Assembly: GCF_965363235.1 (NCBI RefSeq)
Contig: NC_134844.1
Span: 18,148,646 to 18,212,645 of the forward strand
DNA: 64,000 nucleotides
Direction of reading: 5' to 3'
Source: Mytilus galloprovincialis
Taxonomy: Eukaryota > Mollusca > Bivalvia > Mytilida > Mytilidae
In this document: one piece after another, positions 5,551 through 63,047 of the stretch
How positions within the stretch are numbered: position 1 is the first letter of the stretch
Layout: each line of letters starts with the position of its first letter
Notes under the pieces: model-generated
What the model saw: the letters and a program-made list of their open reading frames with translations, nothing else
Databases searched by the model: none
What the model was told of the DNA's origin: nothing
Translations under genes and position numbers: made by a program

Positions 5551-5607
5551 GAATATGAAAACTTCAAAGCAACCAAGATATCTACCAATAAACACAAAAA
5601 ATAACAC

Positions 5608-8635: not shown

Positions 8636-8636
8636 A

Positions 8637-9079
8637 ATTATTTGAAAGAAATTATATTAAAAATGTTCAGATGGAAACTATTACATTTTATTCTCTCAAA
8701 CAAAGTTTCATTAAAACAACGTAATTACTGTAATATAACAAAAGATTATGAACACTTTTTTTTTATTACATGCCACTTTCTTGATAAATTTTGGAAAGAA
8801 ATATTTAATCTGTTAGAAAAAGTTAAACTTTGGAAACACATTTTAACACTAAAACATTTGATTTGGGGTTACAAAATAAGTGATATAGAATAATATGATA
8901 TTATTTTTTTTCTTACAGTAATTATATTTTCAATTCACAAAATACACTATCTGTCAGAGTTTAGAACAAAGAATATAAATGTATTTTCTGTTTTTAAAAT
9001 TGAGCTGAGAAATAGGCTCGTTCTACAAAACAATTTTTTTAACCATGAAAGAAAAAGGAATAATAGGAAAAATATTTAG
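8637..9079 (+). pseudogene. L1-like LINE ORF2 C-terminal fragment, part 2
   Basis: MFRWKLLHFILSNKVSLKQ, then DYEHFFFITCHFLDKFWKEI and LTLKHLIWGYKISD match the zinc-knuckle-like C-terminus of L1/Tx1-like ORF2. One in-frame stop follows SDIE; the frame then continues (HYLSEFRTKNINVFSVFK) to a final TAG near 9079. It continues part 1 at 6160-6595. Confidence 0.75.
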
Positions 9080-15999: not shown

Positions 16000-16433
16000 T
16001 CAAGCTAGATTTAAGTAACTGATCAAGTCATCTTTTTCTTTGATACAATTAAGAATGTTCTTTGCTTTGTATAACTTTTCCCTGCAACGACATTCGTCAC
16101 AACAACAATATATATATCGTTCCGCAATCACCTGCATGCAATCTTCGATCGCTGATTCCATTTCTGCACATCTCATCAAGAAAATTTGTGATTTTGTATC
16201 ACCTGATATATCATTAAACTTTTTATGAGAACATGTGGACGCCTTTTCTATACATGCTGTTAAATATTTGGGTAAACTATAGAGTTCGGCTAACAAAAGT
16301 TCATCAATTAACGTCTTTGCATCAATATCTTTCTTTCCTTTCATACATGTCGCTAATACACCATCTATTTTAAACAAAGGTGTCTCAGCCTGAAACTCAT
16401 ATGCCAATGGTAAAATAAGACGAGCTGTTTTTT
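16000..16433 (-). CDS. BTB protein B, exon 2
   Basis: It encodes residues 90-233, stop TGA at 16000-16002. The frame stays open upstream of the acceptor (to an ATG at 16482), but the 16434 junction restores BTB continuity with the same split Glu codon as in A. Confidence 0.85.
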
Positions 16434-41906: not shown

Positions 41907-44900
41907 CTGAAAAAATATTTAAGCATATACAGTATATTTGAAACCAATGCAAGTTCATGCAAGAGTGAACTTTAAAATTATAAATACTTTCTTTTTATAA
42001 CCTTATAGACACTGATGCTAATCATTTTTTTACAATGTTTAAGTCTGTTTGGGCTATATCCACATTGATATGGAAATATTTGCCACATGTAAATAAAAAA
42101 ATATCATGGTTTAAACTACATGGAGACCTTTATATTTCTTTGTCCTTATAATGAAATTAAACTTGAAGCTGTATTAAAGAGGGCTTAGCCAGTGCTGCAC
42201 ACCTTCATCAACTTGTACATATTCAGCAATTCATTGTCACTCTTACTTACTATTTCACTTCTGTAATCTTATAATTTGAATGTCTGTTTTGGTAATTATT
42301 ATGTTTCAAATGAAGAAGAATATTATATGTTATTCAGGTCTCAGACAGGGTATGTACTGTGACATTCCTGGCTTACAGTTTATATCCCCTGAGCCAGCGT
42401 ACAGTGGATATAGGTACTAACCAAGCAGGTGTGAGCTAATTTTGACCTTACACGATAATGAAAATCTTTGGTTTGTTCACATTATACCAATGTGTACTTC
42501 AATCTAAACATAATTGTTGTTATAAGAAATGGTTTGGTTGTAGGTTGATGATTAAAGATGTCTCATTATTTTCCCAAAAAAAGAATGATTACTAAAAACA
42601 TATGCAAATATTTGTGAAAGTTGACGATCTTATTGTCCGATATGATTCTATATTCATTGCAACTACTTTTCTGATAGAAGGCCACTGTGTGTGTGTAATA
42701 AGAATAGCTGTTAATAATTGCATTGAAATCTCTCATGCATATGTTATATCTCAATATTTTATTCCCAAAAGAAGCGTTGTGTACTGTGCTAATAGCTGAC
42801 AACTTGATTCATTTTGTACAGTGCATAGTTGAAGTTGTTGTACCCCGTACACAAAAACATTATTTCCATGCTCGTTTATTACCCAAAATATTTCAAGGAA
42901 AGAGTAATCACAGATATGTTTATGATTGGTAACTATTACTTTTGCCCTGTATTAGCTTTGTTTCAGATAAAACATGTAAATGTTGTGACAATTGTATCAT
43001 AATTGAAAATGGTGTTGACATTCACAACTATTTGCGAATGTACAAGTTAATTGTTCTTATTTCATATCAAAGGTGTTTTATAAATAGGAAAAAATTGATG
43101 CAAAAATTATTTTGGAGCATGAATTTCAAATGTTGAGAAATATACATTGAATATTGATAAAGCAAAACAAAGATTTTCGTTACTGTGTCAGGTCAAAATC
43201 ACTGATGCGCGCTTGGTTTAGTACCTATATCCGGTGTATTGATGATAAACGGTGATGTTATCATCACTAAAACATGCTTAGATTTATGCAAGAATTTATA
43301 TGCTGATTTTGATAACATTATAGTTAGTTATGCATGACATCCAGGTTGAGAATTTTGACATCAAGGTTAGTTTTCTCGTTTGAATTGTTTTACATTGTCT
43401 TTTCAGGGCCTTTTATAGCTGATTACGCGGTATGGGCTTGCTCATTGTTGAAGGCCGTACGGTTTTCTATAGTTGTTATGTTTGTGTCAATTTGGTCATT
43501 TGTGGATAGTTGTCTCATTGGCAATAATACCACATCTTCTTTTTTATATGGTATAGTATTTTACTGAAATTAAGATAGTCCTTCTTTTAAATAAAAACAG
43601 GCAAAATGATTTTATCACTACTGTTTATAATGAATATGACTTTTTGTTTAAGTGATACATGAAGAGTGAGTTGTATACAACAGACACATGTATTAGTTTA
43701 ATAACTATAAGTTAGAGTACTTAAATGAAAAAACATCAGCAACAAACTGCTCTAGCTTTCATAAAAACTGCAATCTTATTATTGTTATTAATTTTATTTG
43801 GTATCTTGTGAAGAGTTATATAGTCTTGTTAAAAAAGATCATTAAACCACATCTTCTTTTTTATATTAAAAATTGGAGGAAATTCATTTAACTCTTTTCT
43901 ATAATTATTACATGTTTACATTGCTTTGTCCTTGTAATAAAGCAAAGTGTATACATGAAAGCTTCCTAATATGCATGATTATTATCTTACCAGGGCAACT
44001 GCTAAATTGCATGTGTCCTCTGATTCCTCTTTCATGAACTTTCCATAGATGGATTTGGTCAAGCTATTGATGCCTAAAGCACCAACATCCTCATTTTTGA
44101 CGGAGCGACTTAAGATCTAAGAAAGACAAAAATTAAAGTAATATGAAACAAGAGGCTCTCAAGAGTCTGAAATACCAGTTTATGGGCAGATTTTAATCCA
44201 ATGATATGACAATAACATAATAAAATGGATGGTTTTCACAAACACAGTGAAAAATGCAGAATTACGCATTTTCTGTCATTCTTTCCATTAAGAAAACATT
44301 TTGCACTGCAAAAAAATTACAAATTAAATTAAAGAAGGGTTTGATATTTCTACTTTATTGAATCTTGCAAAATACATAGTTGTTTCTTGGAGAGCACATA
44401 TACTTTTCTAATCTGAAATTTATCACAATTTGATTAAAACAAAGGGAAATCAAGAAATTTACAAAATATGCATATTTTGTTGCCATAGTTTCTTGTTTTC
44501 AAGGTAACCCATTCAATGTGTAAGTTTATTCAATTTTCAGAATACCTTGTACTTTGTCTGGCTAGATTATACAAAAGTACAAATATTGACAATATATATA
44601 TATATATGTATGATAACTTAATCAATTACAGTAATATTTGGCCAAAATAAGGGCCTTATGACTTGCAGAATATATCATTATTTAATATTAACATTACAAA
44701 TCTTATTATTCAACTGCATGTTGATGTTTAGAGCGAATTCATCATATGATTGGTAGAAACTATTACCTATGACATTAAACAAAACTTCATATTCCCCTCT
44801 GAATGTCGTGATTGACTTTTGCAATGTTAATTTTTACGGCAGTAAATGTTTAAAAATAGCATTTTGATACGGTTTATTTTAAAAATCATTTCTAATTTAA

Positions 44901-47900
44901 AAAAAATTAAAAAAGAATAAATGAATAAAAAGGTGCGGGAATTTCCAGCTGCATTGAAGACCTGTTGGTGACCATCTGCTGTTGTTTTTTTTCTGTGGTT
45001 GGGTTGTTGTCTCTTTGGCACATTCCCCATTTCCATTCTCAATTTTAAATAGGTACTCGGATTATCAATGTGTAATAATGGTAATTGTTATGTTAAGTTA
45101 TAAAACAGAATGGATTTATAAGAAAACAGTTTCTTAAAATTTATATTCAGAAGTAAAATAAAGTATGGGTCATGGAATAAAACATTCATTTCCCTTAGCT
45201 TAATGAGATATGAAGATTTGTTAACCCTAAAATAGTATTGTTTCCCTCGGGCATTGCCCTAGTGAAATATAATTTTTCTTGGTTGATCAATTTTCATATT
45301 TTGCTCAGGCATTGGAAATAAATGTATAGTAATGTCACAATTGTATATTACCTTATTCTTGGTCTGGGACCTAAAGTCCACCATTTTCCTGGCAGAAAAT
45401 CTAAGTCCATGTCTCAAAACTTCCTGGACATCTGCTTCAGGGGCATATTTCCGTCTCAGTGTTAATAGTTTACTCTACAATATAATTTTCAAACAGATAC
45501 AAGTAGCCAATAAGATATAAATAAGTATGAAAATAAATAGATATAAACAAATTCAACAATAATTTTGAAAATAAATAGATATAAACAAATTCAACAATAA
45601 TTTTGAAAATAGATTGATATAAAAAGGATTTCAATCAACAAATCAAACAAATTTGCTTTGTTCAATAGATCTTAATTGACAATGAAAATGAACATTCCAT
45701 TCTATCATTATCTGTGTAAGGGGAAACAACTCATTGGAATAAGTTTCATTGATCAAGGAAAATTTAATCTGTCTTTCGAGGTCCAAAACCATTGAAATCT
45801 GATTTATTTAAAAAAACAAAACACTGGGGATCAATTTACTTATAAACTCTATTGTAACCAAAAATATTTTTTCACTGTCCATTTCTTTACATTTTTTAAT
45901 TTGTTTGAGGTTGACAAAAAATAGTAGATAGGAATTTGCTCTTCTTAAATATAATCTTTAAAATGTTTAAAAAAATACTCACCTTCAATTCAGTATCAGG
46001 ATCTGCCAGATATGGGTTCCTGGCAAACCTCAACTTTAAATATTCATGTAAGGGTCTCTGAAATAAAGCCAAAATAATTTCAGACTTTTAATTTAATGGT
46101 CAATTGATGCATTGTATCATATCAGTTGTTCATTCCTTGTTCTGTACATAAATCAGACAGCAAGTTTTTTGGTTAATTATTTAGACTGCACAGTGATCGT
46201 TAGTTGTTAAAAAATCATGAGCAAATTATCATACCACATTAATTAGCATTGTGTTTTTAATTCACACATTTGGCAGAGGCAAACTAAAGTTAAAGAATGG
46301 AAACGAATTCAGCAATTTTATGAAATAAAATTGAGAATGTAAATGTTTTAGTTTATAAAGGAAAAAGAGTAAAGGTTTAATTGGTACCATAAAAACGTTT
46401 AATCCCACTGCAAATGTTTGCACTTGTTACTTAAACAAGTAATTTTGCGGCTCTTTACTATTATAGCTTGTTTTATTGGTGAGCCAATACTTTCTGTTAG
46501 GTCGTATAAATTTAGCAATTAATTTATCCATTTTTAAAGGGGCATAACTTATGAACAGCTTAAGGGATGCCACCAAATTTTTGTAATTTTATCTTTGTTT
46601 TGTGGAATAATCATTGTGTATTATTACATTTATCAGCTTTTGAATCTTTCTTTTTATAACCATTGATATCTGAGAAAACCTACATGGCTAAGATGCCCTA
46701 CCTTACATCAAACCTTTATCACATGATCCATTAATTATAGATATAAAGCTTTACCTCAACTGCAGAATTTTCAATAGAGAATGAGGGTACTTTTGTTTTT
46801 CCAGTTTGCAATTGCTTCACTTCTTTCACTGTAATGATAAAGAATTAACTGTATACAAAATATGTAGATTGAGGTTATAAAAATTTCAGAAAAAAATAAA
46901 CATCTTTCATTACAAATTTTACATTTTACCTTGATAAGTTGTTAATTAATCATATGATAAAATAATTATTCAAATTAACCAATGCTCATTGGCCCCAGAT
47001 GACTTTAAAATTCTGATATCACTGAAAAATATACAAATTATTAACCTTAGGTGCACAAATGTCATTTTTTTGGTATTAAAATTGAAATATCTCTTTCAAC
47101 TCATCAGTGACCTATAATTTTTATTATGATTTTCAAATGAGCTATACTGTAAAACTAAATCATTGTAATATTCGAACTATTTCTGCAATAAAGTTCTTCT
47201 TTATTTCAATATAACCTCTTTTTCTCATATGAGTTCAACAGAAAAAAGGTATAATAATGGGCCGTTGCCAATTATTGTAATTGTGCCATTAAAATATTTG
47301 TATTGTATTGTATTGGTATCTTTAAAAAATGTTCCTTTCGAAGGCAGATTTTGAGCGCATGGTCTTTCTATACTATATATTAGTAAAGAAAGTCCCTGTT
47401 GAGTGTAAATGATTACCTCATCAGATAGACAAAAATACAAGTGGACGTGGCTGGGTAATCATACATCCAGACAAAAAATAATTCTGATACTATAATCAAG
47501 ACCTAATTTGTATAGAAAATAAATGCTTACATATTTCTTGTAGCAAAGCTGTGTTTTTTGCACAGCAATCACAATTGGTGGTAGTATTGTTGCATCCTGC
47601 TGCTGTTGGTGCCCTCGGCAATGCCAATGGTGTATCTGTTATATCTTGGTCAAATAAGTCATTTTGTGAATTTTCTTCTTGGCTATCCTAAAACATTTTT
47701 AATATATAAATATCAAAAGCAAAATTTTATAATACATTCTCTATAATTAATATTTACAAAATATTACTTTTAAGCAATTAATAGAAAAATTATTACAAGA
47801 TATGATGTCTGTATGTATTATATAGTTGAGTGTGTAGGACTAGGATGTCACAAATGTAAGTATCAAACAGTCATGAATATCTTATCCCCCCTCCCCCCAT

Positions 47901-48052
47901 TTCCTAAATTAAAACGAAAAAGGTGTCATTCTTTGCTGAATAACAAACTGTTACTAATACAACTATGAAATATAATTTGCTAAATTATAAATTCCAAACA
48001 ATTTCCCAATTTATAAAAAGCTTATTTACAATCTTACCTGATAGTTTGACAT
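41712..48052 (-). CDS. Unfamiliar 254-aa protein, 7 exons, divergent partner of the transposase gene
   Basis: Exons on the minus strand are 48038-48052, 47531-47687, 46755-46828, 45983-46057, 45352-45474, 43991-44116 and 41712-41906. All introns are GT-AG, and the seven pieces give 765 bp with one open frame ending in TAA. The ATG at 48052 has an in-frame TAA 15 nt upstream. Residues 6-36 are acidic and disordered-looking. A Cys cluster (C37, C44, C46, C47) is followed by a short coiled helix (ALLQEILKEVKQLQ). The C-terminal half is rich in Lys/Arg with conserved-looking aromatic positions (FWKSFKSYLQDIL, WRTIIEREEKRIERYRKY). I recognise no family. It starts 153 bp from a Plavaka-like transposase gene in divergent orientation. 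An accessory DNA-binding role, by analogy with the second protein (TNPA) of plant En/Spm elements, is inference only. Confidence 0.75.
42414..43233. mobile_element. 820-bp TIR element in an intron of the divergent gene
   Basis: GGATATAGGTACTAACCAAG at the left pairs with the reverse of the right end (GGATATAGGTACTAAACCAA). Pairing continues through ATTTTGACCT and GAAAATCTTTG, for about 70 bp of diverged TIR. Short frames inside (42602-43136) have no recognisable domain. Confidence 0.65.
43375..43550 (+). repeat. Dispersed repeat family R4 (relative)
   Basis: GGGCCTTTTATAGCTGATTA, GCTCATTGTTGAAGGCCGTA and GATAGTTGTCTCATTGGCAA are shared with 52150-52450. It lies in an intron of the divergent gene. 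Confidence 0.7.
43991..44116 (-). CDS. Divergent gene, exon 6
   Basis: Acceptor TTCTTAG and donor CTG|GTAAGA. It encodes 42 residues including GALGINSLTKSIYGKFMKEE. The next intron (2,084 bp) holds an 820-bp TIR element and a repeat of family R4. Confidence 0.75.
44935..45045 (+). repeat. R4 family fragment
   Basis: GGGAATTTCCAGCTGCATTG and GTTGTCTCTTTGGCACATTC are the reverse of the left part of 57685-58030. Confidence 0.6.
45352..45474 (-). CDS. Divergent gene, exon 5
   Basis: Acceptor ATTGTAG and donor AAG|GTAATA. It encodes 41 residues including LLTLRRKYAPEADVQEVLRH and FSARKMVDFRSQ. Confidence 0.75.
45529..45615. repeat. 38-bp tandem repeat, about 2.3 copies
   Basis: GAAAATAAATAGATATAAAC begins at 45529 and 45567 and, shortened, at 45605. 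It lies in an intron. Confidence 0.85.
45983..46057 (-). CDS. Divergent gene, exon 4
   Basis: Acceptor TTTCAG and donor AAG|GTGAGT, both strong. It encodes 25 residues beginning RPLHEYLKLRFARNPYLADP. Confidence 0.75.
46755..46828 (-). CDS. Divergent gene, exon 3
   Basis: Acceptor ATTACAG and donor GAG|GTAAAG. It encodes KEVKQLQTGKTKVPSFSIEN and SAVE, with the split Leu codon shared with exon 2. Confidence 0.7.
47531..47687 (-). CDS. Divergent gene, exon 2 (Cys cluster)
   Basis: It follows TTTTAG and encodes residues 6-57, from DSQEENSQNDLFDQDITD to NCDCCAKNTALLQEI. The CX6CXCC arrangement is a possible metal site. The donor is ATAT|GTAAGC. Confidence 0.75.
48038..48052 (-). CDS. Divergent gene, exon 1
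   Basis: It encodes only MSNYQ, then donor CAG|GTAAGA. Such a short first coding exon is missed by ORF scans. The phase-0 junction leads into DSQEENSQ. Confidence 0.7.
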
Positions 48053-48205
48053 TGTAGTTATTTGTAGTTATTTTGACAGTTCTGTAGTCTTTTTGACAGC
48101 GTAGTGTTGTCGTCTGCATATGACGTCACGCGCTTCAGTTAAACGTTTTAAACAGGCTCGAATAATGTCAAACATGCAAACATCTAAATGACATTGATTT
48201 CGTGA
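48053..48205. promoter_or_regulatory. Bidirectional promoter with TGACGTCA
   Basis: Only 153 bp separate the divergent start codons at 48052 (minus) and 48206 (plus). The interval contains a perfect CRE palindrome at 48120-48127 followed by CGCG, and near-repeats of TTTTGACAG at 48071-48099. No clear TATA box is seen. Both 5' UTRs must start inside it unless non-coding exons lie beyond. Confidence 0.65.
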
Positions 48206-48673
48206 ATGTCAACAATGTTCTCTCGCTACCGGACATCTAAGTTTACGCAAGAAGAAACCACCTACAAATGTGAAGACTGTACCTACGGAACAGACAAGAA
48301 ATCAAACTTTGCTAGACATTTAACATCTTCTAGACATAGACATCTTGAAACAGATGCTGGCTTATGTACAGCAGCCACAGATCAGCCAGTTTTCCGAGTC
48401 CAGCCCCAGGTCCAGGATGACGAGTTGGCAGATCAACATGAACACGTCCAAGCAGACCAACTTTATGATGATATGTCCGAGGTTGATGAACCAACATTTC
48501 CTGAAGATGTATATGAATCTGATATAGATGAGGAAGATTTCCGTGATGAGTACCACACAGCCACACACCATGCACACGTAGACATGGTAGAATCAGATTC
48601 GGAATGGTTTCCTTTTATGTCTAAACTGCATTTTTTGTTATCAATACTATACAGCTCTAAAACCCACAGAGTG
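48206..48673 (+). CDS. Transposase-like gene exon 1: C2H2 finger and acidic region
   Basis: 156 codons. YKCEDCTYGTDKKSNFARHL then TSSRHRHL gives C-X2-C-X12-H-X5-H. A Gln/His/Asp-rich and strongly acidic stretch follows (YDDMSEVDEPTFPEDVYESD). The donor is GTG|GTGAGT. The frame runs past the donor to 48721 but loses similarity. Confidence 0.85.
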
Positions 48674-51600
48674 GTGAGTATTTATCCTTTTCTGAATTTT
48701 TCCAGCTCTCCATATACTTGATCAATACTGACAATCTCAAAGGCTCTTAATTTGTATATACATGTATGTGTTACAAGGGGGACCCTTGCTGAGAATGCAA
48801 TATCAACTTCTTTTTAAACAAAAATTGTAAATGTATTAGATAAACCATAAGAAAGTTTATAGACAAAATAGGTGCATTTACATTTCCACATATTATGATT
48901 AATTTAAATTGATAGTTATAAAATAACCATACATTGTCTCGCAATATCAATGTTATTTGTACAAGGCTTAGAAACGGGAAGAAAGCAAGGCTGTGCCGAG
49001 CATTTCTACCCGTTTCGAGCCGAGTGCAAATAACATTGATATTTCGAGACAATGTATGGTTATTCTTTATATACTGCAACTCTTAAAACTATTCCAAATG
49101 ATGTATTTTGGGTAAAAAACATCTTTTTTTTTTAAGCGGACGATGTGAAATTTTTAGTGAACCTACATGTACATATGTTTTATTGACTTCATAAATAAAA
49201 CTCTACAGAAACGCATTGTCAAAGTCATAAACAAGGTGATATAGGGTCAGTGACTGTATATCACATATGAATAGATACGGTCAATGCAATTTGACTGCTG
49301 AAATAGCACAGCTGCAGTATATATACATATCTATTGTTGGGTGTCAGTTTATTTACACCAGAAATTTGTTTAATTTAATTGGATACCCTGACTTAAACAT
49401 TGATCATAGAATTATGTTATACACCCTCTCATGCTAATGCTCTCGTGGTATATCTAATACTTAATTTTGCAACCCAAACCTGCAACCTTCAACCTGCATT
49501 TTAGACAATTCCTATATCACTGTCAGCCAATTAGAATATCTTTACATCCAAAATTAAATCATCTGCATTAATTTAAATTCATTATAGAAATTAAAGGGCA
49601 ATTCCTAGGAACGTCTAGATTGGACTAATTATACACTTACTTCCTGTAACCCTCGACTTTTTATGCATGTACTAGTTATATTTACCACCTAGACATACAT
49701 GTATTTTACGAAAACAAATTTATCATTTAAACACTTACAAGACATTTAAAAAAGAAGTCTATTTAAAACAGTATTTACAAAATTATATAAACTGTATGTA
49801 TGTAAATATTTGAATACTTTATTTAATTAAGTTAAACTTTGGGTGTTGTTATTTACTTTAATTGCATGATTTTTCTTTCAGAGTGATGAAGTTATGACAT
49901 TGTTTCTCTTCATTTTGAAAGAATGTGGCACTCAGAATATTCCACCACTAGCAAAAATAAAGAGCTATTTGCAAGAAAAGTTTGAAATGGGAGAAATGAT
50001 TCAAAGGGTAAATTTTAAGACTGTAACTAGAAAATACATGAAGCTTTCTCAGTAACTTCTATAGAATAATATGATGTCAGTATCAAAGATATAGTAAGCT
50101 CTTTTGTTCTCATTTTAAATTGACTGTTTTGTTCTCATTTTAAATTAGCTGTAGTATGCATACATCACCGCTCAGCTTGTATCCATATCTTTTAGTTATA
50201 TAAAATAAATATTCTCAACAATGTACAATTTACATTTATTGTTTAACATAATGATAAAGAAATTTGTGTATTCATTGTAGCATGAGGACGCACAGGGTAA
50301 CATAAGTTGGGCAATAAAACCATCAGCCATGCTTCGACTACACCTAGCAAATCCAGATACTGCTAATAGAATATCAAGGTGAGAAATGGCTATGCTGAAA
50401 ACAGCTAACTTGGTAAATGGAAAATAGTTTAAAACTCAAAATCATTTTTGTATGAAATTTGTATTGGTATACAAAAAAATAATTTAAAATCTGTGATGCA
50501 GCTTTTCAATGTAGGCCTGAGTGTTCATTAAATTTTCAAAATGATAAATCTTGTAATGATCCATTTTATGAAAAAAATTGAGTCATTAAGTCCTCAAAAA
50601 ATTTGTACCATGATTTAACCTGATATTGAATATATGACAGAAAATGGATATTTCAATGCTTTTTACCTCTCCTGGCCGAAAGGCCAAGTGAGCTTTTCCC
50701 ATCACTTGGCGTCCGTCGTCGTCGTTGTCCTGCGTCCGTCGTCGTTAACTTTTACAAAAATCTTCTCCTCTGAAACTACTGGGCCAAATTAAACCAAACT
50801 TGGCCACAATCATCATTGATGTATCTAGTTTAAAGTTTGTGTTTAATTACCCGGCCAACCATCCAAGATGGCCGCCATGGCTAAAAATAGAACATAGGGG
50901 TAAAATGCAGTTTTCGGCTTATAACTCAAAAACCAAAGCATTTAGAGCAAATCTGACATCGGGTAAAATTGTTTATCAGGTCAAGATCTATCTGCACTGA
51001 AATTTTCAGATAAATCAGACAACCCATTGTTGGGTTGCTGCCCCTAAATTGGTAATTTTAAGGAAATTTTACTGTTTTTGGTTATTATCTTGAATATTAT
51101 TATAGATGGAGATAAACTGTTGACAGCAATAATGTTTAGCAAAGTAAGATTTACAAATAAGTCAAATGACCAAAATGGTCAATTGACACCCTAACAAGTT
51201 ATTGTCCTTTACAATCAATTTTTAACAATTTTCATAAAATTTGTAAACTTTTACTAACATTTTCCACTGAAACTACACGGACAAGTTCATTATAGATAAA
51301 GATAATTGTAAGCAGCAAGAATGTTCAGTAAAGTAAGATGTACAACATCACAATCACCTAAACACAATTTTGTAATGAACTGTCTGCTTCCTTTGTTTAA
51401 TTCACATATACCAAGGTGAGCGACACAGGCTCTTTAGAGCCTCTAGTTTATACGACCTCAAAATTTTTGCAGGCATATATTGGTACATGTATGTCATCAG
51501 AAGAAGGATCATTGTTTCTGGATAATAACTTTTGTATAAGTTAATAGAAATGAATAAAATTATAACACAATGTTTATATAACCACAAAAGGAAGTTTGGG

Positions 51601-54600
51601 AATGATTTTGGGGGTTATGGTTCTTAGGTTTTAGAAGGTTGGGATTGTGGTAGTGTAAAGCTGCGCTCTGTGGATTATATTGATAAGGGATGTGTGTATA
51701 CAATTATATACCAACTATCAACAGCTATGGAAGGGGTGCAAAAATGTAGGCCTTATTTTTACAGTAATGTAGTCAACCACACTATATTTTTTTCTATGTA
51801 AGCCATAGGCATGTAGGGTTCTGTATATAGACATAACTTTCATTAAGGCTTCTTCATATCATTATAAAATTATTATTTTACATTTAGATATCCTACGGTT
51901 GAAACCAGTAGTGAAAGTGTTCACCAGGCCTCAGGCAATAAATGGAAATCCATGGAATTTCATTGGGCAATGAACAAAGAAGGACAGCAATTCATCAAAG
52001 GGGCATTTGTATCATTCAGTGTCAGAGGTCAAACTGTTTATGGGAAAATTATGCAATTCCTTGAAAATTTGTTGGTAATTGTTTGTTAAAAACTTTTGAA
52101 TAAGGTGTATAATATTTCTTCCAATTTGTGTAAAAATCTAAGGGATCCTGCTAACAGGTTTAACCCGCCACATTATTTATGTATGTGTCTGTCCCAAGTC
52201 AGGAGCCTGTAATTCAGTGGTTGTCGTTTGTTTATGTGTTACACATTTGTTTTTCGTTTATTAGGCCGTTAGTTTTCTCGTTTGAATTATTTTACATCGT
52301 CTTATTGGGGCCTTTTATAGCTGACTATGCGGTATGGGCTTTGCTCATTGTTGAAGGCTGTATGTTGACTTATAGTTGTTAATGTTTGTGTCATTTTGGT
52401 CTTTTGTGGATAGTTGTCTCATTGGCAATCATACCACATCTTTTTTTTATATAAATATGGGACAACTGTGTAGCACAATATTTTTATTAAGTACTCCAAT
52501 AAGTAAAAAAACAGTTTTATTTTGTATTTTATTAACATTCTTTATAAGATATATTCTCTGAGACCCAGAAAATTCCAAATTCACCTCTGTGATTTATAGG
52601 CGTTACATGTATATATGTACAAAATGTACTAGAACAAAATTTTACCTGAATGTCAAGAATGACAATAGTTTGCTAAACAGTAACAATAATTTTTCAATTC
52701 ATCCAATCTATTATTTTAAATAAAGAAATAACAAATATTGATGTAATTTTATTTCTTTCAGGAGGATAGAATGTATGTCAAAGTTTCAGTTTATTTAGAT
52801 AAAACACACAGAGTGTTAACAGATGAATATGTGGAGAACAAGTAAGTATTGTGTGTTAACGGATGAAATTAAGCATAAATATATAGAAATATCAATGTTA
52901 TTTGTTCAAGGCTTCGAAACAGGTAGAAAACAAGGCTGTTTCGAGCTGAGTAACGATTGTACAAATAACAGATTGATATTTTGAGACAATGTATGGTCAT
53001 TCTTTATATACTGCAACTCTTATAATGATGTAACTGTTATAAATGAAGTATTTAGGGTAAAAACCATCATTTATTAATTTTGAGCAGCAGATGTAAAATT
53101 ACTTAGAACATCAACATAAGAACTAAGGTGATTTCAATTATGAAATTGTTGGTAACATTTTAGTTTTGATGAATCATGAATTTTTGTTTAATACTTGGTA
53201 GATACTGTTTAATAGAAAAGTTTCTCCCAGCTATGTTTGAAAATCATATATTGTTTAAAACAGAATAAAGTTTCTTTGTCCAGCGGTTATTTGAATACTT
53301 TGAATACAATTGTGTTTTCAGACCTTAAAATATGACCAAAAAACTTAATTCAAGAAAATGATACAACTGAGATTGGTTATTTTGTAACATGCCTTATTTC
53401 AAATGTTTTGATTGGTGTAACTGTTTGCTGTTTTGGAATATCAAAGATCTCCTTCCGCCAAGATGATTCGTGTAAAAAAGTAGTTTTAGCAAAAAAAAAG
53501 TTATATTAACATTTTTGAAACCCAGTAAGGTTTTGTATTTTACCTCATTTATATAACATGTCAAGAATATTAACTAGAACTAGAAGTGGAACATGTTAAT
53601 GTTAGTTTCTTATTTTTCACTTGTAGTTGCTTGGTAAAGATGGACAAATATCGTACAGTATCCCTAGATGACTGTCAAACATTTGATGTGTCTAATATTA
53701 GATCATTTAAAGAAATTTTGAATGGGGAATTGAGTTATGTCTCTAATGAGGTATGTATACATATGTTTTTATCTTATCAACTTATGTCTTTAACATGATT
53801 ATGTATAATTCTAATGCAATTTGGATGTAACAATTTTTTTCATTGGAGCTTAAAATACAATACAGTTATCTCCTAAATTGACAGTGGCAACTCTTCAACT
53901 ACAGTACTGTTATTCCTTAATTAGATACTAATAATTTCAATGCTCATACTATTTTTTGGCTGCAAACTTGTTGTAAATGTATATTTGAAGAATATTAATT
54001 TCAAACTTAGTACATCTCCAACCACTCTTCTTTACAGTAATTTGTTGAACGTTGCTTTCATTTTGTTTATTGTTACTAAGTGTAATGTTATTACATCTCT
54101 AAGGACTCTCCATATATATTTATGCCCCACCTTTGACAGTAGAGTGGTACTATGTTTACTGGCCTGTGCTTCCATTTGTTTGTTCGTCTGTCCTTTTAAA
54201 GGTTTTGGTCAATGTAGTTTTTAAAGAAATCCAAACAACTTGAAACTTACTATTCATATATTCCTTATGATATGATCTTTCTAATTTTAATGCCAAATAA
54301 AAGTTTTTCCACAAATTTCACGGTCCACATCACTAGGTAAACTCAATTTGCGACAGTAAAATCTGATGTTTTACGAAGGCCAAGCTTAACAAACAATACA
54401 GTTATCTCCTAAATATCAACAACATATCAGTAATTGACTTATTCATACTTTTAAAAAAACAATCAATCTATAACATCATATTATACATGCTGTATATTTT
54501 ATCCCAATTATTCAGGAAATCGAAGAGATTTTGCAAAGTTCAACTTTATGGAGAGGCTTGCCGGTGGTTTCTGTGCCAATAAACCTTTTCATGGATGACT

Positions 54601-57600
54601 TGTCCGCAAATCAGTCCAGAAGATGGTCACCTTTACATGCTGTACAAGGGCAGATTTCTGGTCTTCCACTTGAACAAAAGAACAAAGGCAAAAGTGTAAT
54701 GTTTCTTGGGCTGTCAGATAAAATGTCCATGTTGGATCTTATGTCACCAATATGTAGTGACATAAAACAATGCAAGCAGTAGGTATTATTTATGCATCCA
54801 TATTTTCAGAAAAAGTTTAGTTTGATTATCTGTTTGCAAACAACCTAAAAAGACACATGTACCATACAAAGGAGTAGGTTCAAATATATATTTGAAATGG
54901 CCTCTTCCATATATATATCATCCAGAGGTGTAAGTCAATGGTTGCATTGGTTTGATATGAAAAAGAATGTTATAATTATTTTATCATCTGACTGTCAGAT
55001 TGCAAGCAACTCTGAAGTATCTTTCCATTTCAACTGTAAGGGACTAAAAAAGGGTTTGAAGATTGACCAATTAATTGGTTTTTTTTTGTCAACTTTTAAT
55101 TAATATTGCAAACTTTATTTGTAACTATAAGTAGTTGTGATATGGTAGAGAAATAATTGTGTATGAAATTAAATATGTTTTTCTGTATATTTCAGTTTTA
55201 TTAAACATTATGTCATGATTTGTCCCACCTTAAAAGTATGTTAGATAAGTAAGGATGAATTTTTGTCAATATATATTTATATATATATATTTTAACTATG
55301 TGAGTTATTCAGGTTTGGAATTGAGACATATGATGCAGCCTTAAAACAAAAGGTGATCATGATAACTGATATATCACTTATTGTAACAGACTACCAGATG
55401 ATGAGTTTGGCATGTAATCACTTGGGTCCATCTGCAAACAAATTTTGTCCAAAGTGTTTTGTAAGTGTGGCTTTTAGAAAGTATTATATTAATAATGATA
55501 TTTTGTACTTTGAAATTAAATCAACTACCTGAATAAAATTCTGGTTGTTTCCCATGGATTCTTTTCAGTTTAGTATATATACATTGATTTTTTACTAAAG
55601 ACTATCAAAATGATATTGTCAAGATTAATGGATAATTGTGATTTTTTTTTTTGTATAAATTTATGGTGACATTTTAATTTGCAATATTTTTTTTGTATCT
55701 ATGGTTAAAACCAATTATAATTCAGGCTGACGATTCAGATCCATTTAAGAAATGGGATATGAGGTCAAAAGAGGCAACATCAAGAACCATGGAGAGAATA
55801 AGGCTGCATGTGGATAGGACGACAATGCAGAGACAAACAGGAGTCAAAGAATATGACAATTGTTTATGGGATTACCTAGATACCCACAAGTAAGTTAACC
55901 CAATTATGGGTTTGAAAATTAATATGAATATAAATCAACAGAATATTTTTTTTACAGCTCTTCTATAAAAGCTTGCAAAGAAAACCTTTGATCAACATGC
56001 TTGCTGCGTTTGCTTTGATGTTTGCAAAAAATAGATAGGCAGAGTTTCAGTCTGTTTTATATAGACTGGGATTTGACAAAACAGTTTATTAATACCACCA
56101 AAATTTCATAAGAATATAACTGGCATTTGGAAAAAGTTTTCCCAAATTAATATTCTTCATTCTTGTGCAGAAAGTCAGTTTGGAAAAAAATATTTATCAA
56201 TTATAAATTTTTGACAATGTCAGTACCTCATATATATTCTTAACAGCTGCAGTTAACATGTAACATCATGAGGTTATAAATTCACCAACAGAGTTCTTAT
56301 GAACCACAAATATACATTTACTAGAAATATAGTGTCAATCTAAGCAAAAAAAGAAAGAAAGCTTCAGATATGTAAACATGTGATTGTCATATCCAATGAA
56401 AACAGTAGCAGGCTTCATCATAGGTTATTTTCACAAATGTATCTAGCCAATATAGAATAATTGCTAACATGGCAGACAATTTTTTCTAATGTCTTTCTAA
56501 TAGAGTAATCAGGTCTACTATTTGTCTATTGAGAGACTTTATAAACAGATGTACATTGGTCAAGAAAAGCCAAAAATGATTGGTCTTTAATTAATCAAAC
56601 AAACTCTAATTCATATTTTATTATGCAAATAACTTTTTCAGGGACACACCAATAGGAATTCTGCACTTCTTATACCTAGGCTTAGCAAAGCAGTTGATAA
56701 AAGTGAGTTTATAGAATGGTAAACAAATGTCAAACTGTCGGTGAAAAACCAATCTAACATTTGTATAATATTCATGCAATAACCCTTTTATTATATAGAA
56801 ATTATAATATTTGGAAATAAAATTGAGCTAAGATTTTGTCGTTGATGATGTCATTAATTTTGAAGATTTATTGCACTAGTGCAATATTAAAAATTATTGC
56901 ACACTAACTTTTGGTTACTTTATGTGGGAAATATCCTTCCCTGATATGAATTTTATTGAGTGACCCGATAAATTCTGGAATTAGGACAATTGCTCACTGT
57001 TTAGCTAATAGTATCATTTAAACAATTGATTAATGTCAATCAACAAATCAAAATTTACCATTCACACAAAATACATGTAATATGTTATTCTTTATAAACA
57101 GTTTTCTTTGGATTCCTTAACGGAGCATCAGAAAAATCTGCTGAAACTGCATCTTGACAGCATTGACCAGTCTAGTTTCAGTTACAGAATCCAAATCAGC
57201 TTTTTCCAATATATTGACAGCCGTCAAGGGAAAGATTACAAGCATTATGTGAGTATTTAAAAAACATAGATTGTTCAAAATCATCCTTGAAGGGTATGAA
57301 ATTGATTAAAATCTGCCACATTTGTGTGCGGTCTGTAACATTCTTTTTAGCATATACTGCAGATGTTTTTGAAAAATAAGAAATGCCCTTTTTTTATATT
57401 TTAGCTTCAAATAGCAGTCCTAAATATGGAATATGCTGGATTGCCAAAGAAGTATTTGTGTGTTTTAGAAAAACTTGCAATGGTATGTCAATAACTCATA
57501 TATATCATAAATACAGCTACCATTAACCAAAACAGTTCATATCTTTTGATTTCTTTTGACAAATGAAAATATATAACATATATCAGTGATAAAAATTTAC

Positions 57601-60600
57601 TTCTTTCAGGTCAATATATCCATGTATCAGTTAAGATATAAGCTATATGTGTAATATATAATTAATTCATGTATTATATAAAATTGAGAATGAAATGGGG
57701 AATGTGTCAAAGAGACAACAACCCGACCATATAAAAAACAACAACAGAAGGTCACCAACAGGTCTTCAATGTAGCAAAAAATTCCCGCACCCGGGGGCAT
57801 CCTTCAGCTGGCCCCTCAACAAATATATACTAGTTCAGTGATAATGAACACCATACTAATTTCCAAATTGTACACAAGAAACTAAAATTAAAAAAAATAC
57901 AAGACTAACAAAGGCCAGAGGCTCCTGACTTGGGACAGGCGCAAATATGCGGCAGGGTTAAACATGTTTATGAGATCTCAACCCTCCCCCTATACCTCTA
58001 GCCAATGTAGAAAAGTAAATGAATAACAATACGGTAATAAATTATTGTAACATGACATCCTTAAAATGCTTTGAGTACACACCCGTGGTAAAATATAAAT
58101 ATATTGTTGGGGCTGTCCAGATTGTACTCACATGTCATTACCTTTTTTATGAATGAATGTTTGTACTATCTGACGTCATAATATAAGCATTTTACATGAA
58201 AATACATGCTTCTGAAACCGAAAATCATCACAATAAGGAAATGTAAATAAACAATGCTTCAATGTGTTTTATAAGCCATTTTTGTAAACATATAAGGCAT
58301 TTAAGTCAAATTTATCATTGAAACTCATCCAAACCTATCTAAATATGTTATTTTTAATAGTTAAAGCATGTCACAAATTCAGTTTGCTGCTTTCTTTTAT
58401 GTCAATTTAAAACTGTGTGTTTATTTATAGGAAAGGCAATAAATGCCTTCACCTATAACGGTTCAATCCAAAAATAAAAACTTATATATCCTATTAGAAT
58501 CAAAATAATTCATGGGTCTTGAATATATCTAGATTTTACCACAGGTTGTCCCTTTATGCCAATATTGCTGTCGCTCAGGGTAAAAATGTTGTCATAAAGG
58601 GCCAACCCATGTGAATCACCATATATTCAAGCCCCCATGAATTATTTCTTAATTAGATTTGTTCAAGACTAGTCACAAATTAAACTATATTTTTTAAGGT
58701 AGATAGAAAACAGTTGATAGCAAAAGGCATATTGCACGGTTGTTTTTCGATTATCTGAAAACTGATATACTTTGTGACGCCATGTAAAAAAATTTGTGAT
58801 ATTATAAACTTAAAACTTGTCTCAGATCAATACATGATATATTGACCCTAACTGTCATCAATTGTAGAGCGACATATGTCAGAGATTAAACAATTCCCCA
58901 TATATCAGATATGTTTCAAATTTGGCTTTGACTGCATTTGAAAAAAATCAATAATTTTGATTTTCAATGTTTAAAGTTATCTTTTTTTACAGATTTCAAA
59001 ACATATGATTAAAAAGGAAAACACAATTAAAATAGTACAGGAATTGGATGAATATCTAAATATATTGAAACAGAATATTCCACAGCTAGGCAGAAAAAGG
59101 AAAACACACTTATGTGTACATCTGGTAAAGTTATAAGTGGTATAATTTTTCAAATAGTTACATATATTTTAAGATGTTTAAAAAGTAATTAATGTTATTA
59201 CTAACAGAAATTCTAACATATGTCATTATTTTTATATGGATTCAGATTGAAACAGTATGTAACACTGTGTTTTCTGTTAATTTAAAAAAGAAGATGTAGT
59301 ATAATTGCTGATAAGACAACTCTATACAGTAGAACAAATGCCATAGAAATTAACAACTATGGCTGTCAACAACGAGCAAAGCCTATTATTTCTTGTTAGC
59401 TATAACAGGATTCTATTGTTCTCTTTTCCTGTTCAACATTTGTATAACCATACATTTTGAGAATAGTGTGCATTTATTATCTTTAATTACTGATTACCAG
59501 TAAAAAGGTGACATCTATAAGTGTGATGACCAAAAATTGTAAAGTAAAATTATGAATTTGAGTTTTAATTGGTGAGCCTGCAAATTTTGTTGCAAAAAGC
59601 TCGACAAAGGGATAGTGATTCGGCAGCGGTGGCTACAGCGGCTGTGTAAGCTATCTTTTTAAAAGCTTTATATTTTAGAAGGTGGAAGACCTGGATGCTT
59701 CATACTTGGTATATAGATGCCTCATGTTAAGAAGTTTCTGTCAGTCACATGTCAAATGTCCTTGACCTCATTTTCATGGTTCAGTGACCACTTGAAAAAA
59801 AGTTCTGATTTTTTGTTATGTTGAAATCACTCTAACTATAAGTAATAGGATAATTATATGTGGTATGTGTGTACCTTGCAAGGTCCTCATGCCCGTCAGA
59901 CAGTTGACCGCGACCTCATTTCATAGATCAGTGAACAAGGTTAAGTTTTGCTGGTCAAGTCCATATATCAGATACTATAAGCAATAGGGCTAGTATATTC
60001 AGTGTATGGAAGGACTGTAAGGTGTACATGTCCAACTGGCAGGTGTCATCTGACCGTGACCTCATTTTCATGGTTCAGTGGTTATAGTTAAGTTTTTGTG
60101 TTTTGGTATCAATATCATAATATCAATGATTAGTAAAGAAGGCAAGGCATTTCAGTGTGTGCACTCTTGTTAAATTATCAATAACAACTATATATATGCA
60201 CTTGATTTTGGACTTATATATATTTTTGCCTCAGACATCACTGATGTGACATAAATTGCAGTAATATGAAAATATTTTATACAGCTTATTATGTAAATTA
60301 AGGAATTAATTTTAAATGAATATTGATTAAAAGAGGGCAATATTTTAAAGACTTGACCATTGCAGGCTGATGATATTGAGAGGCATGGCCATCCACTGCA
60401 ATATGCTGAAGATGGGTTTGAGAAAAATCACAAATCTGTCAGGAGTAGTATTGCCCACCAAAATGGTCATGCAAGATCAAGGGACACAGCCTCACAATTT
60501 GTCAATAATGAGTTGATGGGACATGTTATTTCAGGAGGATTTATGCCAGATTCTCAAAACTGGTAATAAATGTTTTTACACTATTGGTATTTAGCGGAAT

Positions 60601-63047
60601 TTTGTCTACAAATTACAAATGTAAATACGTCTATTGTAATCTGTCCATCTGTGACCATCTGTTAATTAAAGATAAAAAATGTACCTGATTTTTGCAATTA
60701 GTTTAATTGATTACATAGTCCTAACATTTATACTGAAGAAACATTACATATGCAGATTTATAGAAAATTGGGTTTAATACAAAGCTGCTTTTTTTCAAAA
60801 TTGTTGTGTCTTCAATACAGCAAGAAAATCCTGTAACTGGAGGTGGCTCTCAGTTGGCCTAAATGAAAATGTGTACAAGTTCATTGAAAATGGATGTTAT
60901 ATATACTACATGTCATACATATAGACTGTGTTACTGAAACATTTTATAAATGTGAACCAAAAGTTAAGAACATAAAAGATTAAAGATTGAATCTGATTTG
61001 GGATGGGAAGGATACTTTCAATTTGAAAATTTTGTTAACATTGGCGTATTTGAAAAGAATTTTATAAAATCTAATTGGCAATAATTTTCCATGCAATAAT
61101 ACTGTTTTACCAAAAGGATATTATAATGAGAAATATAGATTCTTACACTGTAACAAGTGTATTACGATATTTCTCCACTCGAGACAGTTAAATTTTATTA
61201 TTTAAAGCGCGAGGCTTATAGTGTCAGAATCTGTTTCTCTAATGCTTTTTATCGTTCTTTTTCAAAGATTTTCAGAAAATTGTGCTCTTTATAAGCGACG
61301 TCATCAGGCAATGTCGCCTTTTTTCATGACGTCACAATAGGAAAATTGACGTCATTATCAAATTTCGACTAATCTTTTGCCGAGAACAGATTTTTCACTA
61401 GTGAGGAGAAATATTTTTCTCACACCGGTCAGGAAATGTGAAAATAGCACAAAAATTAGAGAATATATGTTTTACACAAAAAAAATGTTTTTCTTGGTTT
61501 ATTAAATAAGATGATTCCTGCATAATTAGTTAGAGGAAACTGTTAAAAATTTAGAATAATAAACAAAGTTTTAAATTTCTGGCTTTTTAGGAAATGTGCT
61601 GCTGAAAAGATAAAGCTGTTTGGAAAAAATAAGAAAATTCTGAATTTCCTAGGAATGCCTAGCAGCCAATATGAGGAAAATCTGTCTGGGTTGAAGAAAA
61701 TGGTTCGAAAACCAACAGCGGTAAATTTATTTTATATAAATCTGTGTATTGCCTTTGTAAAGATAAACCAAGCGAGTCAGATAAATTCCTTCATTTCTTA
61801 TATGAAAGGATGGTCATATTGATCTTTTTTTTTAAGAATTAATAGAGATCCATTCACTTAAACTTAAGTTGTTGTCAAGAAATCAATGTGTTTTTCTTAT
61901 GATGGTGCAGAAGACAAAGACAACATCATACCATTAATTCCAATTAAAATTTGCAGTTGTGTAAAAATCAAAAGCCAAGTGACAAAGTCAGAAAACAAGA
62001 TAAAAACACAAATATGATCAGCAGAAGAACACAAAATTAGGAAACTAAAGACTGAGCAACACAAACCCCACTAAATACAGAAGTTGATTTCAGGGACTTA
62101 AGAAGTGTACCATAAGCAGAATTTTCTACACATGCAGCACCATCTTTTTTATTATATTGTACAAACCAGGGGTTAGAATCAAAATATAAGATCAAATTTC
62201 AATGAAAAGATTTATATAAACTTGGAATTTACTTGTATTTATATTTCAGTCATTATATTTAGTGCAAATTTTAAAATTCAAATGAGTTGTCATAGATACA
62301 CTTTTTTCTATGTCACTTTTAAAAGTGATAATTCAATAATTATTTTTATACTGCAATCAACTATTTTACTACACAAATGAAGCTATAGGTATAAACGTTA
62401 GCTTTATAAATCAATGACCTCAACTAACATATAAGCCCCGCCTCCTTACGGGAACTGTTGTATTTCATCAACAACCTCACTTCACGACCGTGACAACGTA
62501 AAGTTACAATGGTCAAACTTTTATGAATTTAAACTTTTATGTCTTCAAATTGGTTATTTATATATCATGTTTATCAAATGTTATTAATAAGTTCATTTTC
62601 CCTTTCTAATTTCTTAATATGTCAATTTCTTACCACCTGGACTATGCTCATAGGGAAATACCCCAAAATGGTACCCAATTCCAAACACTTTTTTTAACAA
62701 TTTTTGTAACATATTTTTTTTCATTTTTTCATATTTTTTTTCGATTTCCGTATAAAAACAATATACGTATAGTGTCTTAAAATATGAAATTTATTTGTAT
62801 GACGCTTAGAAACTGGAAAATGTGAAGTTTTACCGATTGTTTAAATATACTTTTACAGAATGGTGATGATTTGATGAATCATTATGAAGTACAGATTCTC
62901 CAAGCAATTATTAATTGTGGTGGACAGCCAGGTTTGCTTGGCAGCAGTAACCTTAAAATAGTGCAATTCAAGTCTTGTGTGACTAAGCAAGGGGACACTG
63001 CCAAAGTGGACAGCTTTGTATTATATCATGTGGATGAAGACGATACA
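48206..63047 (+). CDS. Plavaka/CACTA-type transposase-derived protein with N-terminal C2H2 zinc finger, at least 16 exons (3' end outside window)
   Basis: Exons: 48206-48673, 49882-50007, 50281-50378, 51888-52074, 52762-52841, 53627-53750, 54516-54778, 55313-55460, 55726-55889, 56642-56702, 57102-57248, 57405-57482, 58993-59124, 60366-60562, 61591-61720, 62859-63047. All introns are GT-AG, and the phases join into 864 codons without a stop. An in-frame TGA sits directly before the ATG. The order is: C2H2 finger (C22, C25, H38, H44); acidic linker (about 70-140); helical region; transposase-like core with FMDDLSANQSRRW (388-389 Asp pair), MITD (468) and a CNHLG...FCPKC knuckle (483-497); TPIGILHFLYLGLAKQL (555-571); GRKRKTHLCVHL; and GFEKNH (E711) with GHARSRDTASQF. 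This order matches Plavaka-type (CACTA/EnSpm superfamily) transposases. The frame is intact although introns hold foreign repeats. A domesticated gene is possible; a long active transposon is the alternative. Confidence 0.82.
48922..49064. mobile_element. 143-bp foldback element, copy 1
   Basis: AATAACCATACATTGTCTCG pairs with CGAGACAATGTATGGTTATT. Pairing continues through AATATCAATGTTATTTG and GAAACGGG-AGAAA. It lies in intron 1 of the transposase-like gene. Similarity to copy 2 extends past the arms through CTTTATATACTGCAACTCTT. Confidence 0.8.
49882..50378 (+). CDS. Exons 2-3
   Basis: Exon 2 (49882-50007) encodes SDEVMTLFLFILKECGTQNI and more. Exon 3 (50281-50378) encodes HEDAQGNISWAIKPSAMLRL and more. 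Plavaka-type proteins commonly have a helical segment here, before the catalytic core. The donors are AGG|GTAAAT and AAG|GTGAGA. Confidence 0.75.
50661..51446 (+). mobile_element. Helitron-like element R2, full-length copy in intron 3
   Basis: The 3' end has an AGGCTCT-TT-AGAGCCT hairpin (51427-51442) followed at once by CTAG (51443-51446) and then T, the classic Helitron 3' terminus. The 5' side starts near TCTCCTGGCCGAAAGGCC. It is about 786 bp without coding capacity, so non-autonomous. Partial and near-full copies are at 37918-38737, 40147-40935 and 41300-41447. Confidence 0.75.
51888..53750 (+). CDS. Exons 4-6: pre-catalytic module
   Basis: Exons 51888-52074, 52762-52841 and 53627-53750. 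They encode KWKSMEFHWAMNKEGQQFIK, GAFVSFSVRGQTVYGKIMQF, EDRMYVKVSVYLDKTHRV and DKYRTVSLDDCQTFDVSNIR. The FV.F....G..YGKI.QF pattern suggests a small beta-rich (BAH- or SH3-like) module, but this is a guess. Confidence 0.75.
52150..52450 (+). repeat. Dispersed repeat family R4 in intron 4
   Basis: CCCAAGTCAGGAGCCTGTAA, TTTTATAGCTGACTATGCGG and TAGTTGTCTCATTGGCAATC match 43375-43550 and, in part, the reverse of 57685-58030. The 67- and 61-codon frames over it are repeat translations. Confidence 0.75.
52887..53002. mobile_element. Foldback element, copy 2 (left arm truncated)
   Basis: AAATATCAATGTTATTTG and TTTGAGACAATGTATGG match copy 1 at 48922-49064, but the outer left arm is missing. It lies in intron 5. 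Confidence 0.7.
54115..54380 (+). repeat. Dispersed repeat (TATGCCCCACCTTTGACAG)
   Basis: TTTATGCCCCACCTTTGACA to CTAATTTTAATGCCAAATAA is a sequence I associate with repeats common in bivalve genomes. No second copy is in the window. It lies in intron 6; the overlapping 94-codon frame is not a gene. Confidence 0.4.
54516..55460 (+). CDS. Exons 7-8: putative catalytic core and zinc knuckle
   Basis: Exons 54516-54778 and 55313-55460. VPINLFMDDLSANQSRRW is the region where related transposases read Y.DD.SGN.S..WN. VIMITDISLIVTDYQ carries the second conserved acidic position. CNHLGPSANKFCPKCF is the Cys/His knuckle conserved in CACTA-type transposases. The CA|GTAGGT donor is the weakest of the set, but reading on gives an immediate TAG. 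Confidence 0.82.
55726..57482 (+). CDS. Exons 9-12: central transposase region
   Basis: Exons 55726-55889, 56642-56702, 57102-57248 and 57405-57482. They carry GVKEYDNCLWDYLDTHK, then DTPIGILHFLYLGLAKQLIK (family pattern D.P..ILH...LG..K), DSRQGKDYKHYLQIAVL (family pattern GRDFK...Q...) and GLPKKYLCVLEKLAM. Confidence 0.82.
57685..58030 (-). repeat. Dispersed repeat family R4, long copy in intron 12
   Basis: GGGAATGTGTCAAAGAGACA, CTCCTGACTTGGGACAGGCG and ATGTTTATGAGATCTCAACC align with 18690-18935 and extend it to the left. Confidence 0.75.
58993..60562 (+). CDS. Exons 13-14: C-terminal catalytic region
   Basis: Exons 58993-59124 and 60366-60562. LGRKRKTHLCVHL and ADDIERHGHPLQYAEDGFEK are followed by NHKSVRSSIAHQNGHARSRD and VISGGFMPDSQNW. 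In related transposases this segment reads KPK.H.L.H, then E..FE..N and ..PSRD, then F....I..GG. E711 is therefore the likely third acidic catalytic residue. Confidence 0.82.
59570..60170 (+). repeat. Dispersed repeat with internal GACCTCATTTTCATGGTTCAG copies, intron 13
   Basis: GACCTCATTTTCATGGTTCA occurs twice and a variant once, spaced about 150 bp, so the element consists of internally repeated modules. It is non-coding. Confidence 0.55.
60902..60952. repeat. 51-bp exact direct repeat, copy 1
   Basis: TATACTACATGTCATACATA and the following 31 bp recur exactly at 63482-63532 in the same orientation. It lies in intron 14. Confidence 0.9.
61157..61425. mobile_element. MITE with ATATTTCTCC inverted ends, intron 14
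   Basis: GTGT...GATATTTCTCCACTCG at the left pairs imperfectly with the reverse of the right end (GTGTGAGAAAAATATTTCTC). Several GACGTCA motifs lie inside (61300-61360). Confidence 0.55.
61591..63047 (+). CDS. Exons 15-16: C-terminal region, gene continues
   Basis: Exons 61591-61720 and 62859-63047. They encode EKIKLFGKNKKILNFLGMPS, HYEVQILQAIINCGG and GDTAKVDSFVLYHVDEDDT. The last stretch resembles the G...VGD.V......... end module of these proteins. The frame ends at donor ACA|GTATGT. No following exon was found before 64000, so the stop lies outside the window. Confidence 0.78.
61980..62145 (-). repeat. Family R3, diverged copy, intron 15
   Basis: GAAACTAAAGACTGAGCAAC and ACAAACCCCACTAAATACAG align with 18465-18510. 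It is strongly diverged. Confidence 0.45.

Follow-up and report, generated by a model that had tools for sequence, protein, structure and literature searches.

The 64-kb window analysed here (64,000 nucleotides (nt) of the Mytilus galloprovincialis genome, C7:18148646-18212645) carries a transposase-derived gene, W7, that spans 16 kb. Loci are named by contig (C5, C7, C8, C10, C11, C12, C169) of the searched genome, which comprises 1.385 Gb in 331 contigs. A first-pass annotation of the window had joined 16 GT-AG exons into 864 stop-free codons, and independent splicing from the window reproduced this count: exons 1-16 carry a GT donor and an AG acceptor throughout, and the spliced sequence is 2592 nt, or 864 codons, with zero stops. 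The 3' end of that model was incomplete. A seventeenth exon, just outside the window, begins at the acceptor TTTTCTAG and adds 116 codons followed by TGA, giving a full protein of 980 amino acids (aa) over 17 exons. Matching exons in paralogues on C8 make the chain more than a chance product. Repeats are indeed present within the introns, one of them a putative Helitron by the first-pass annotation.

On its sequence, the W7 product is a DDE (Asp-Asp-Glu) transposase of the CACTA/EnSpm group. The wider name CMCT, after PMC12730594, covers the transposases of CACTA/EnSpm, Mirage, Chapaev, Transib and their kin. An intronless open reading frame (ORF) of 973 aa on C5 is a clear Transposase_21 protein (PF02992, E 1.2e-11), and hhalign matched a profile built from W7 and two C8 paralogues, C8a and C8b, to it with E 6.7e-7 and a probability of 92%. 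The alignment pairs D475, C494/C497, H687/H691 and E711 of W7 with an Asp, a C(2)C, an H(3)H and a Glu of the C5 protein. It begins after the first catalytic Asp, which from its position and conservation would be D388 or D389. Residues D388/389, D475, C494xxC497, H687xxxH691 and E711 are invariant across the three diverged lineages. The candidate acidic triad of W7 lies in the expected order, the first Asp being placed by position and conservation only, and the putative C(2)C and H(3)H motifs fall between the second D and the E. The available part of PMC12730594 places C(2)C and H(3-4)H at this point in EnSpm, Plavaka, Transib and RAG1. The earlier assignment to the CACTA group is upheld by the C5 alignment, the invariant residues and the Pfam matches of the paralogues. 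Its second acidic position, in an MITD motif, was wrong; the C5 alignment instead makes D475, within 'VTDYQM', the second catalytic Asp.

The Pfam matches themselves are weak. The 864-aa part of W7 gave sub-threshold matches only, to zf-H2C2_5 (E 0.0012) and Transposase_21 (PF02992, E 0.11); with the 980-aa protein the former was retained (E 0.0014) and the latter lost (no match at E<=10). PF02992 matched C8b with E 0.00091 and C8a with E 0.029, both under the gathering score; the curated cut-off of 28.6 bits was reached by none of the three, the best score being 18.9 bits for C8b. The name Plavaka, used in the first pass, finds no support in Pfam: PF18759 matches none of W7, C8a and C8b, and the motifs fit the wider CMCT group. 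The same profile gave zero matches over the whole genome, a weak negative since control genomes were equally silent. No PDB sequence matched W7 at E<=1, and a pattern scan of viral contigs returned 53 pattern matches, none of them a W7 relative. The N-terminal C2H2 finger had been read as a fusion to the transposase. The finger pattern stands, and calling it a fusion is misleading: by eye, C8a has the same C-x2-C-x12-H-x5-H pattern (Pfam reports no finger in C8a), and the C5 intronless protein also begins with a C/H-rich stretch. The finger is thus probably native to the transposase.

A protein search of the genome with W7 listed 53 matches, with the best 52 of 117 candidates scored. In C8a, 14 of the 15 exons sought (1-15) are stop-free with splice sites, exon 11 lying mostly outside the sequence compared; in C8b this holds for 6/6 exons sought (7, 8, 9, 12, 13 and 14). 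Exon lengths are exactly those of W7 for 11/14 exons in C8a and 4/6 in C8b, and the remainder differ by multiples of three. Paralogue exons were picked by requiring the W7 phase and no stop, so that the independent results are similarity and equal lengths, not phase. Over 722 codons W7 and C8a share 59% aa identity, with a proportion of synonymous differences (pS) of 0.81, which is saturated, and a proportion of nonsynonymous differences (pN) of 0.26; over 325 codons the values for W7 and C8b are 48%, 0.80 (saturated) and 0.34. The saturated pS and the shared layout imply that the exon layout of W7 predates the splits from C8a and C8b, and the low pN beside saturated pS that the three proteins have been constrained.

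A molecular clock for the W7 locus itself is provided by a repeat in intron 1 resembling a miniature inverted-repeat transposable element (MITE). Its consensus was derived from 7 copies cut out at other loci, taken from 88 matches. The window copy differs from this consensus by 30 substitutions and 6 insertions or deletions (indels) over 395 sites; among the substitutions 26 are private, 4 are shared and 6 are CpG-type. The other seven copies carry 3-18 substitutions each. Neutral drift was simulated on the 2943-nt coding sequence in 4000 runs, with even substitution and two thirds of indels frame-shifting. When substitutions and indels were both applied, 0/4000 frames stayed open at the full, half or quarter MITE age; a tenth of that age left 1.5% open and a twentieth 13.8%. 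Given the MITE age and these runs, the W7 frame was probably maintained after the insertion; clock and simulation together indicate that selection has kept it at this locus. The first pass had suggested that the protein is under selection in the manner of a domesticated transposase, and the MITE age test supports this together with the saturated pS and low pN. The exons, the associated features and the related loci are collected in Table 1.

Table 1. Exons of W7, associated features and related loci (positions beginning with C are on the contig, all others on the window scale)
Feature	Location	Strand	Remarks
W7 exon 1	48206..48673	+	N-terminal C2H2 finger and acidic linker; zf-H2C2_5 sub-threshold, E 0.0012
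W7 N-terminal C2H2 finger	48269-48337		exon 1; C22, C25, H38, H44
W7 exon 2	49882..50007	+	27/42 identical to C8a
W7 exon 3	50281..50378	+	splicing and paralogue comparison
W7 exon 4	51888..52074	+	splicing and paralogue comparison
W7 exon 5	52762..52841	+	weakly conserved, 11/27 vs C8a; C8a exon 3 nt longer
W7 exon 6	53627..53750	+	splicing and paralogue comparison
W7 exon 7	54516..54778	+	candidate first catalytic Asp D388 or D389, codons 54594-54599
W7 exon 8	55313..55460	+	candidate second catalytic Asp D475 (55389-55391); C(2)C knuckle C494/C497 (55446-55457)
W7 exon 9	55726..55889	+	splicing and paralogue comparison
W7 exon 10	56642..56702	+	splicing and paralogue comparison
W7 exon 11	57102..57248	+	40/49 identical to fragment C11f
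W7 exon 12	57405..57482	+	26/26 identical to fragment C11f; 20/26 to C8a
W7 exon 13	58993..59124	+	H(3)H motif H687/H691 (59107-59121)
W7 exon 14	60366..60562	+	candidate catalytic Glu E711 (60420-60422)
W7 exon 15	61591..61720	+	15/43 vs C8a; C8a exon 6 nt shorter
W7 exon 16	62859..63047	+	last exon inside window
W7 exon 17	64008-64358 (C7:18212653-18213003)		starts 8 bases beyond window edge
MITE-like repeat, intron 1	48917..49323	.	inverted arms 75 nt, 77% complementary; molecular clock
5' flank and first 117 nt of exon 1	46902..48322	+	two C11 loci hold pieces of it, each 76-97% identical
C8a	C8:1542-1557 kb		intron-containing W7 paralogue
C8b	C8:26.495-26.507 Mb, and copy 29.7 kb further (26.525 Mb)		W7 paralogue
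C12 relative	C12:27812-27826 kb		protein search
C11e	C11:83.265 Mb		protein search
C11f	C11:71.32 Mb		fragment
C10 relative	C10:4.29 Mb		protein search
C169 relative			protein search; probable allelic contig of C8a
Further pieces on C11, and C5 intronless ORF			protein search

The reading preferred here, at a probability of about 0.6, is that W7 is a complete 17-exon, 980-aa gene derived from the CACTA/EnSpm group (CMCT) and under purifying selection, most likely belonging to a small set of domesticated host genes. Its frame has been kept open longer than chance easily allows, and W7 is therefore probably kept for the animal's use and not a recent parasite. In such a gene the N-terminal C2H2 finger may dock on specific DNA, and the RNase H-like core, with its acidic residues retained, may still cut or join DNA. 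The host would then use W7 to bind or cut DNA in a sequence-directed way, and the locus would have ceased to transpose.

A number of observations weigh against this reading. With substitutions alone, the share of simulated frames that stayed open was 0 at the full MITE age, 0.4% at half, 6.2% at a quarter, 32% at a tenth and 56% at a twentieth. The clock rests on 7 copies, and part of the divergence may be a subfamily difference. If the clock were wrong by a factor of four, the conclusion on selection would hold on either count, though weakly when only substitutions are considered; at a factor of ten it would hold only with indels counted too. Low pN/pS among paralogues arises also between active transposon lineages, and an intact catalytic triad is what a mobile element also keeps. 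Intron-containing relatives of W7 are dispersed over C7, C8, C10, C11 and C12. Blocks of 1.6-2.1 kb, introns included, match between C8a and the C12 relative at 92-97% identity, and C8a and C11e are 86-93% identical, so that genomic copying between chromosomes has gone on. The protein of the fragment C11f is close to that of W7 in exons 11 and 12 (Table 1). Short inverted pairs in the flanks of the gene also exceed their controls, as described below.

The strongest alternative is a tentative one that we hold to be clearly the less probable: W7 may be an intact copy from an autonomous family of CACTA-type transposons that is old, rich in introns and low in copy number, its protein acting in trans on unrecognised terminal inverted repeats (TIRs) and the fragments being dead copies or deletion derivatives. 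The full acidic triad would suit such an element, as would the dispersed, intron-containing copies of differing age (C12, C11e, C11f and two 5' pieces on C11). Two of these copies are broken as in dying elements, C12 by a stop in the CPKC knuckle of exon 8 and C11e by a frameshift in exon 7. C11f is 84-88% identical to W7 around exons 11-12 and their introns; in it a piece of intron 4 adjoins intron 10, hence exons 5-10 are absent. Between W7 and C11f the ratio of nonsynonymous to synonymous divergence (dN/dS) is 0.10, from 75 codons in 2 exons with 9 amino-acid versus 16 synonymous changes by codon, which is too few to carry weight. The ratio for C8a and C12 is 0.2, from 255 codons with few changes. 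C12 exon 8 and C11e exon 9, both truncated as picked, were left out of the ratio counts.

Against a mobile family stands the want of siblings in the searches made. No near-identical full copy of W7 was present among the 53 matches listed, in which the best match outside the W7 locus for exons 2-16 is 82% (exon 8, C8a). No intact near-identical sibling was among them either; C12 reaches 92-97% identity to C8a and is interrupted by its stop. The W7 frame has outlived the intron-1 MITE, and a sibling sharing this insertion, as expected of a mobile family, was not found among the best 40 of 1568 candidates, in a search that can miss copies (the two C11 exon-1 pieces are absent from its list). Multiple exons are known from CACTA elements: in the available part of PMC4158355, plant CACTA transposases have mostly two to six exons, and up to eleven in maize, which favours an intron-rich transposon. 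The same part of that source records no mobile elements in the introns studied, unlike those of W7. Many near-identical copies with TIRs, which in the first pass would have marked W7 as an active transposon, did not appear in the matches listed and the flanks scanned, and the dispersed intron-containing copies and the fragments keep the old-transposon alternative alive.

CACTA/EnSpm transposons are bounded by TIRs, often 5'-CA..TG-3', with target-site duplications (TSDs) of 2-5 bp. The flanks 42001-48205 and 64359-74000 were scanned for 14-nt pairs, with 20 control stretches for comparison. Among pairs with 3-5 bp duplicates there were 2 CA pairs (controls mean 0.3, max 1) and 0 TG pairs; among those with exactly 2-bp duplicates there were 0 CA pairs (controls mean 2.2), 3 TG pairs (controls mean 0.3, max 1) and 0 CCC pairs. 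No convincing TIR was found in these flanks, though weak pairs exceed the controls in two classes, an excess that the old-transposon alternative can claim. A dispersed repeat takes in all or part of 3 of the five weak pairs. The pair 44160/69791 has 14 nt with a TCT duplicate and was rejected, as it ends there (24/60 identical) and has its right half inside a dispersed repeat; the pair 45636/65289 is 31/60 identical and unconvincing. The TG pairs 43446/69625 and 43519/69551 lie inside the dispersed repeat 43366-43550/69521-69706, and the fifth is a TG pair at 47309/73484 with a 2-bp duplicate. Other long matches from flank to flank, inverted or direct, resemble dispersed repeats.

Within the host-gene reading, a somewhat doubtful variant holds that the family was spread by segmental duplication and serves as a DNA-binding regulator only, without catalysis. 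The finger pattern and exon layout common to W7 and C8a are in keeping with it. So is the C8b unit, present in two copies ~29.7 kb apart that are 100% identical over the 3243 bases compared; either the unit was duplicated in tandem very recently or the second copy is an artefact of assembly. All three lineages nevertheless keep the candidate residues for catalysis and zinc binding unchanged, and loss of catalysis often relaxes such residues. That W7 is a recently dead transposon copy with its frame open by luck, or a mis-joined exon chain, is highly improbable: the repeat-rich DNA around the locus would allow it, and the neutral simulation and the matching exons of the paralogues speak against it.

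The likeness of W7 to CACTA/EnSpm (PF02992) lies in the DDE core and in the C(2)C and H(3)H between the second D and the E; W7 differs in that its 980-aa protein has no PF02992 match at E<=10, and in having 17 exons and no convincing TIR in the flanks scanned. With Plavaka (PF18759) it shares C(2)C and H(3-4)H between the second D and the E, and the difference is the missing PF18759 match in W7, C8a and C8b. The Plavaka families treated in the available part of PMC12730594 come from fungi; their ends read TGT..ACA or CATCA..TGATG, and their TSDs measure 2-3 bp. SmTRC1 and the animal TRC elements of the CACTA superfamily, as presented in part of PMC1636069, resemble W7 as animal CACTA-group transposases with spliced transcripts. 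SmTRC1 is 4.5 kb long with 54-bp TIRs, whereas W7 occupies 16 kb and the flanks scanned yielded no convincing TIR. Some TRC elements have TIRs; for copies without recognisable TIRs, the same part of that source names mutation, loss or domestication as possibilities. PGBD5, a domesticated piggyBac, is by the title of PMC3902484 likewise an intron-containing transposase gene kept over long times, with conservation from cephalochordates to humans; it belongs to another superfamily.

Domesticated transposases as such are already known. Among the papers listed by keyword searches of the open literature, no CACTA-derived animal host gene is named in titles or abstract openings, which is no proof of absence. 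If orthology holds, W7 would be an animal CACTA-derived host gene with an intact acidic triad that is unusually intron-rich, and a test case for the recruitment of CACTA-type enzymes to DNA cutting, as in RAG1. RAG1 is a relative of Transib and belongs to the same CMCT group. By analogy, it is conceivable, as a long shot, that a CMCT transposase family has furnished molluscan host genes over a long time (the synonymous sites are saturated), which with a working DDE site and a DNA-binding finger would serve the host by cutting DNA at selected sites, the role that RAG1 has in vertebrates.

Several minor observations concern the related loci. The C11 pieces that contain exon 1 are 88% and 97% identical to W7. 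After the first 39 codons both run on into a remnant with a YIDDVLS-like motif (L045 from 4697; L046 below 4862, minus strand), which from its motifs we take to be a Penelope-like reverse transcriptase. No intact candidate exon was found for C11e exon 7 or C169 exon 1; the latter (L044 reverse complement, ~5661-5958) holds an insertion of ~300 bp, and the matches on either side of it share 8 bases, as an 8-bp target-site duplication would leave. About 1 kb of W7 intron 12 (57679-58669) is absent from C11f and was probably inserted after C11f split off.

Around the gene, a 77-bp stretch at 47780-47856, 0.35 kb upstream of the ATG, recurs at 100% identity as a unit of satellite-like arrays spread over many contigs. 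A search including it returned 747 matches, and this stretch made up most of the rows listed; it has no tRNA or Rfam match. It is absent from the otherwise similar copy at C11:31.057 Mb, as if cleanly inserted with TAA repeated. An Rfam scan of 36000-64000 and a tRNA scan of the window gave no matches. Further upstream, putative BTB/POZ-like gene pieces and reverse-transcriptase remnants were labelled by eye from their translations, all on the minus strand, at 4514-5011, 5230-5625, 7886-8656, 16000-16494, 28678-29838 and 33805-34932.

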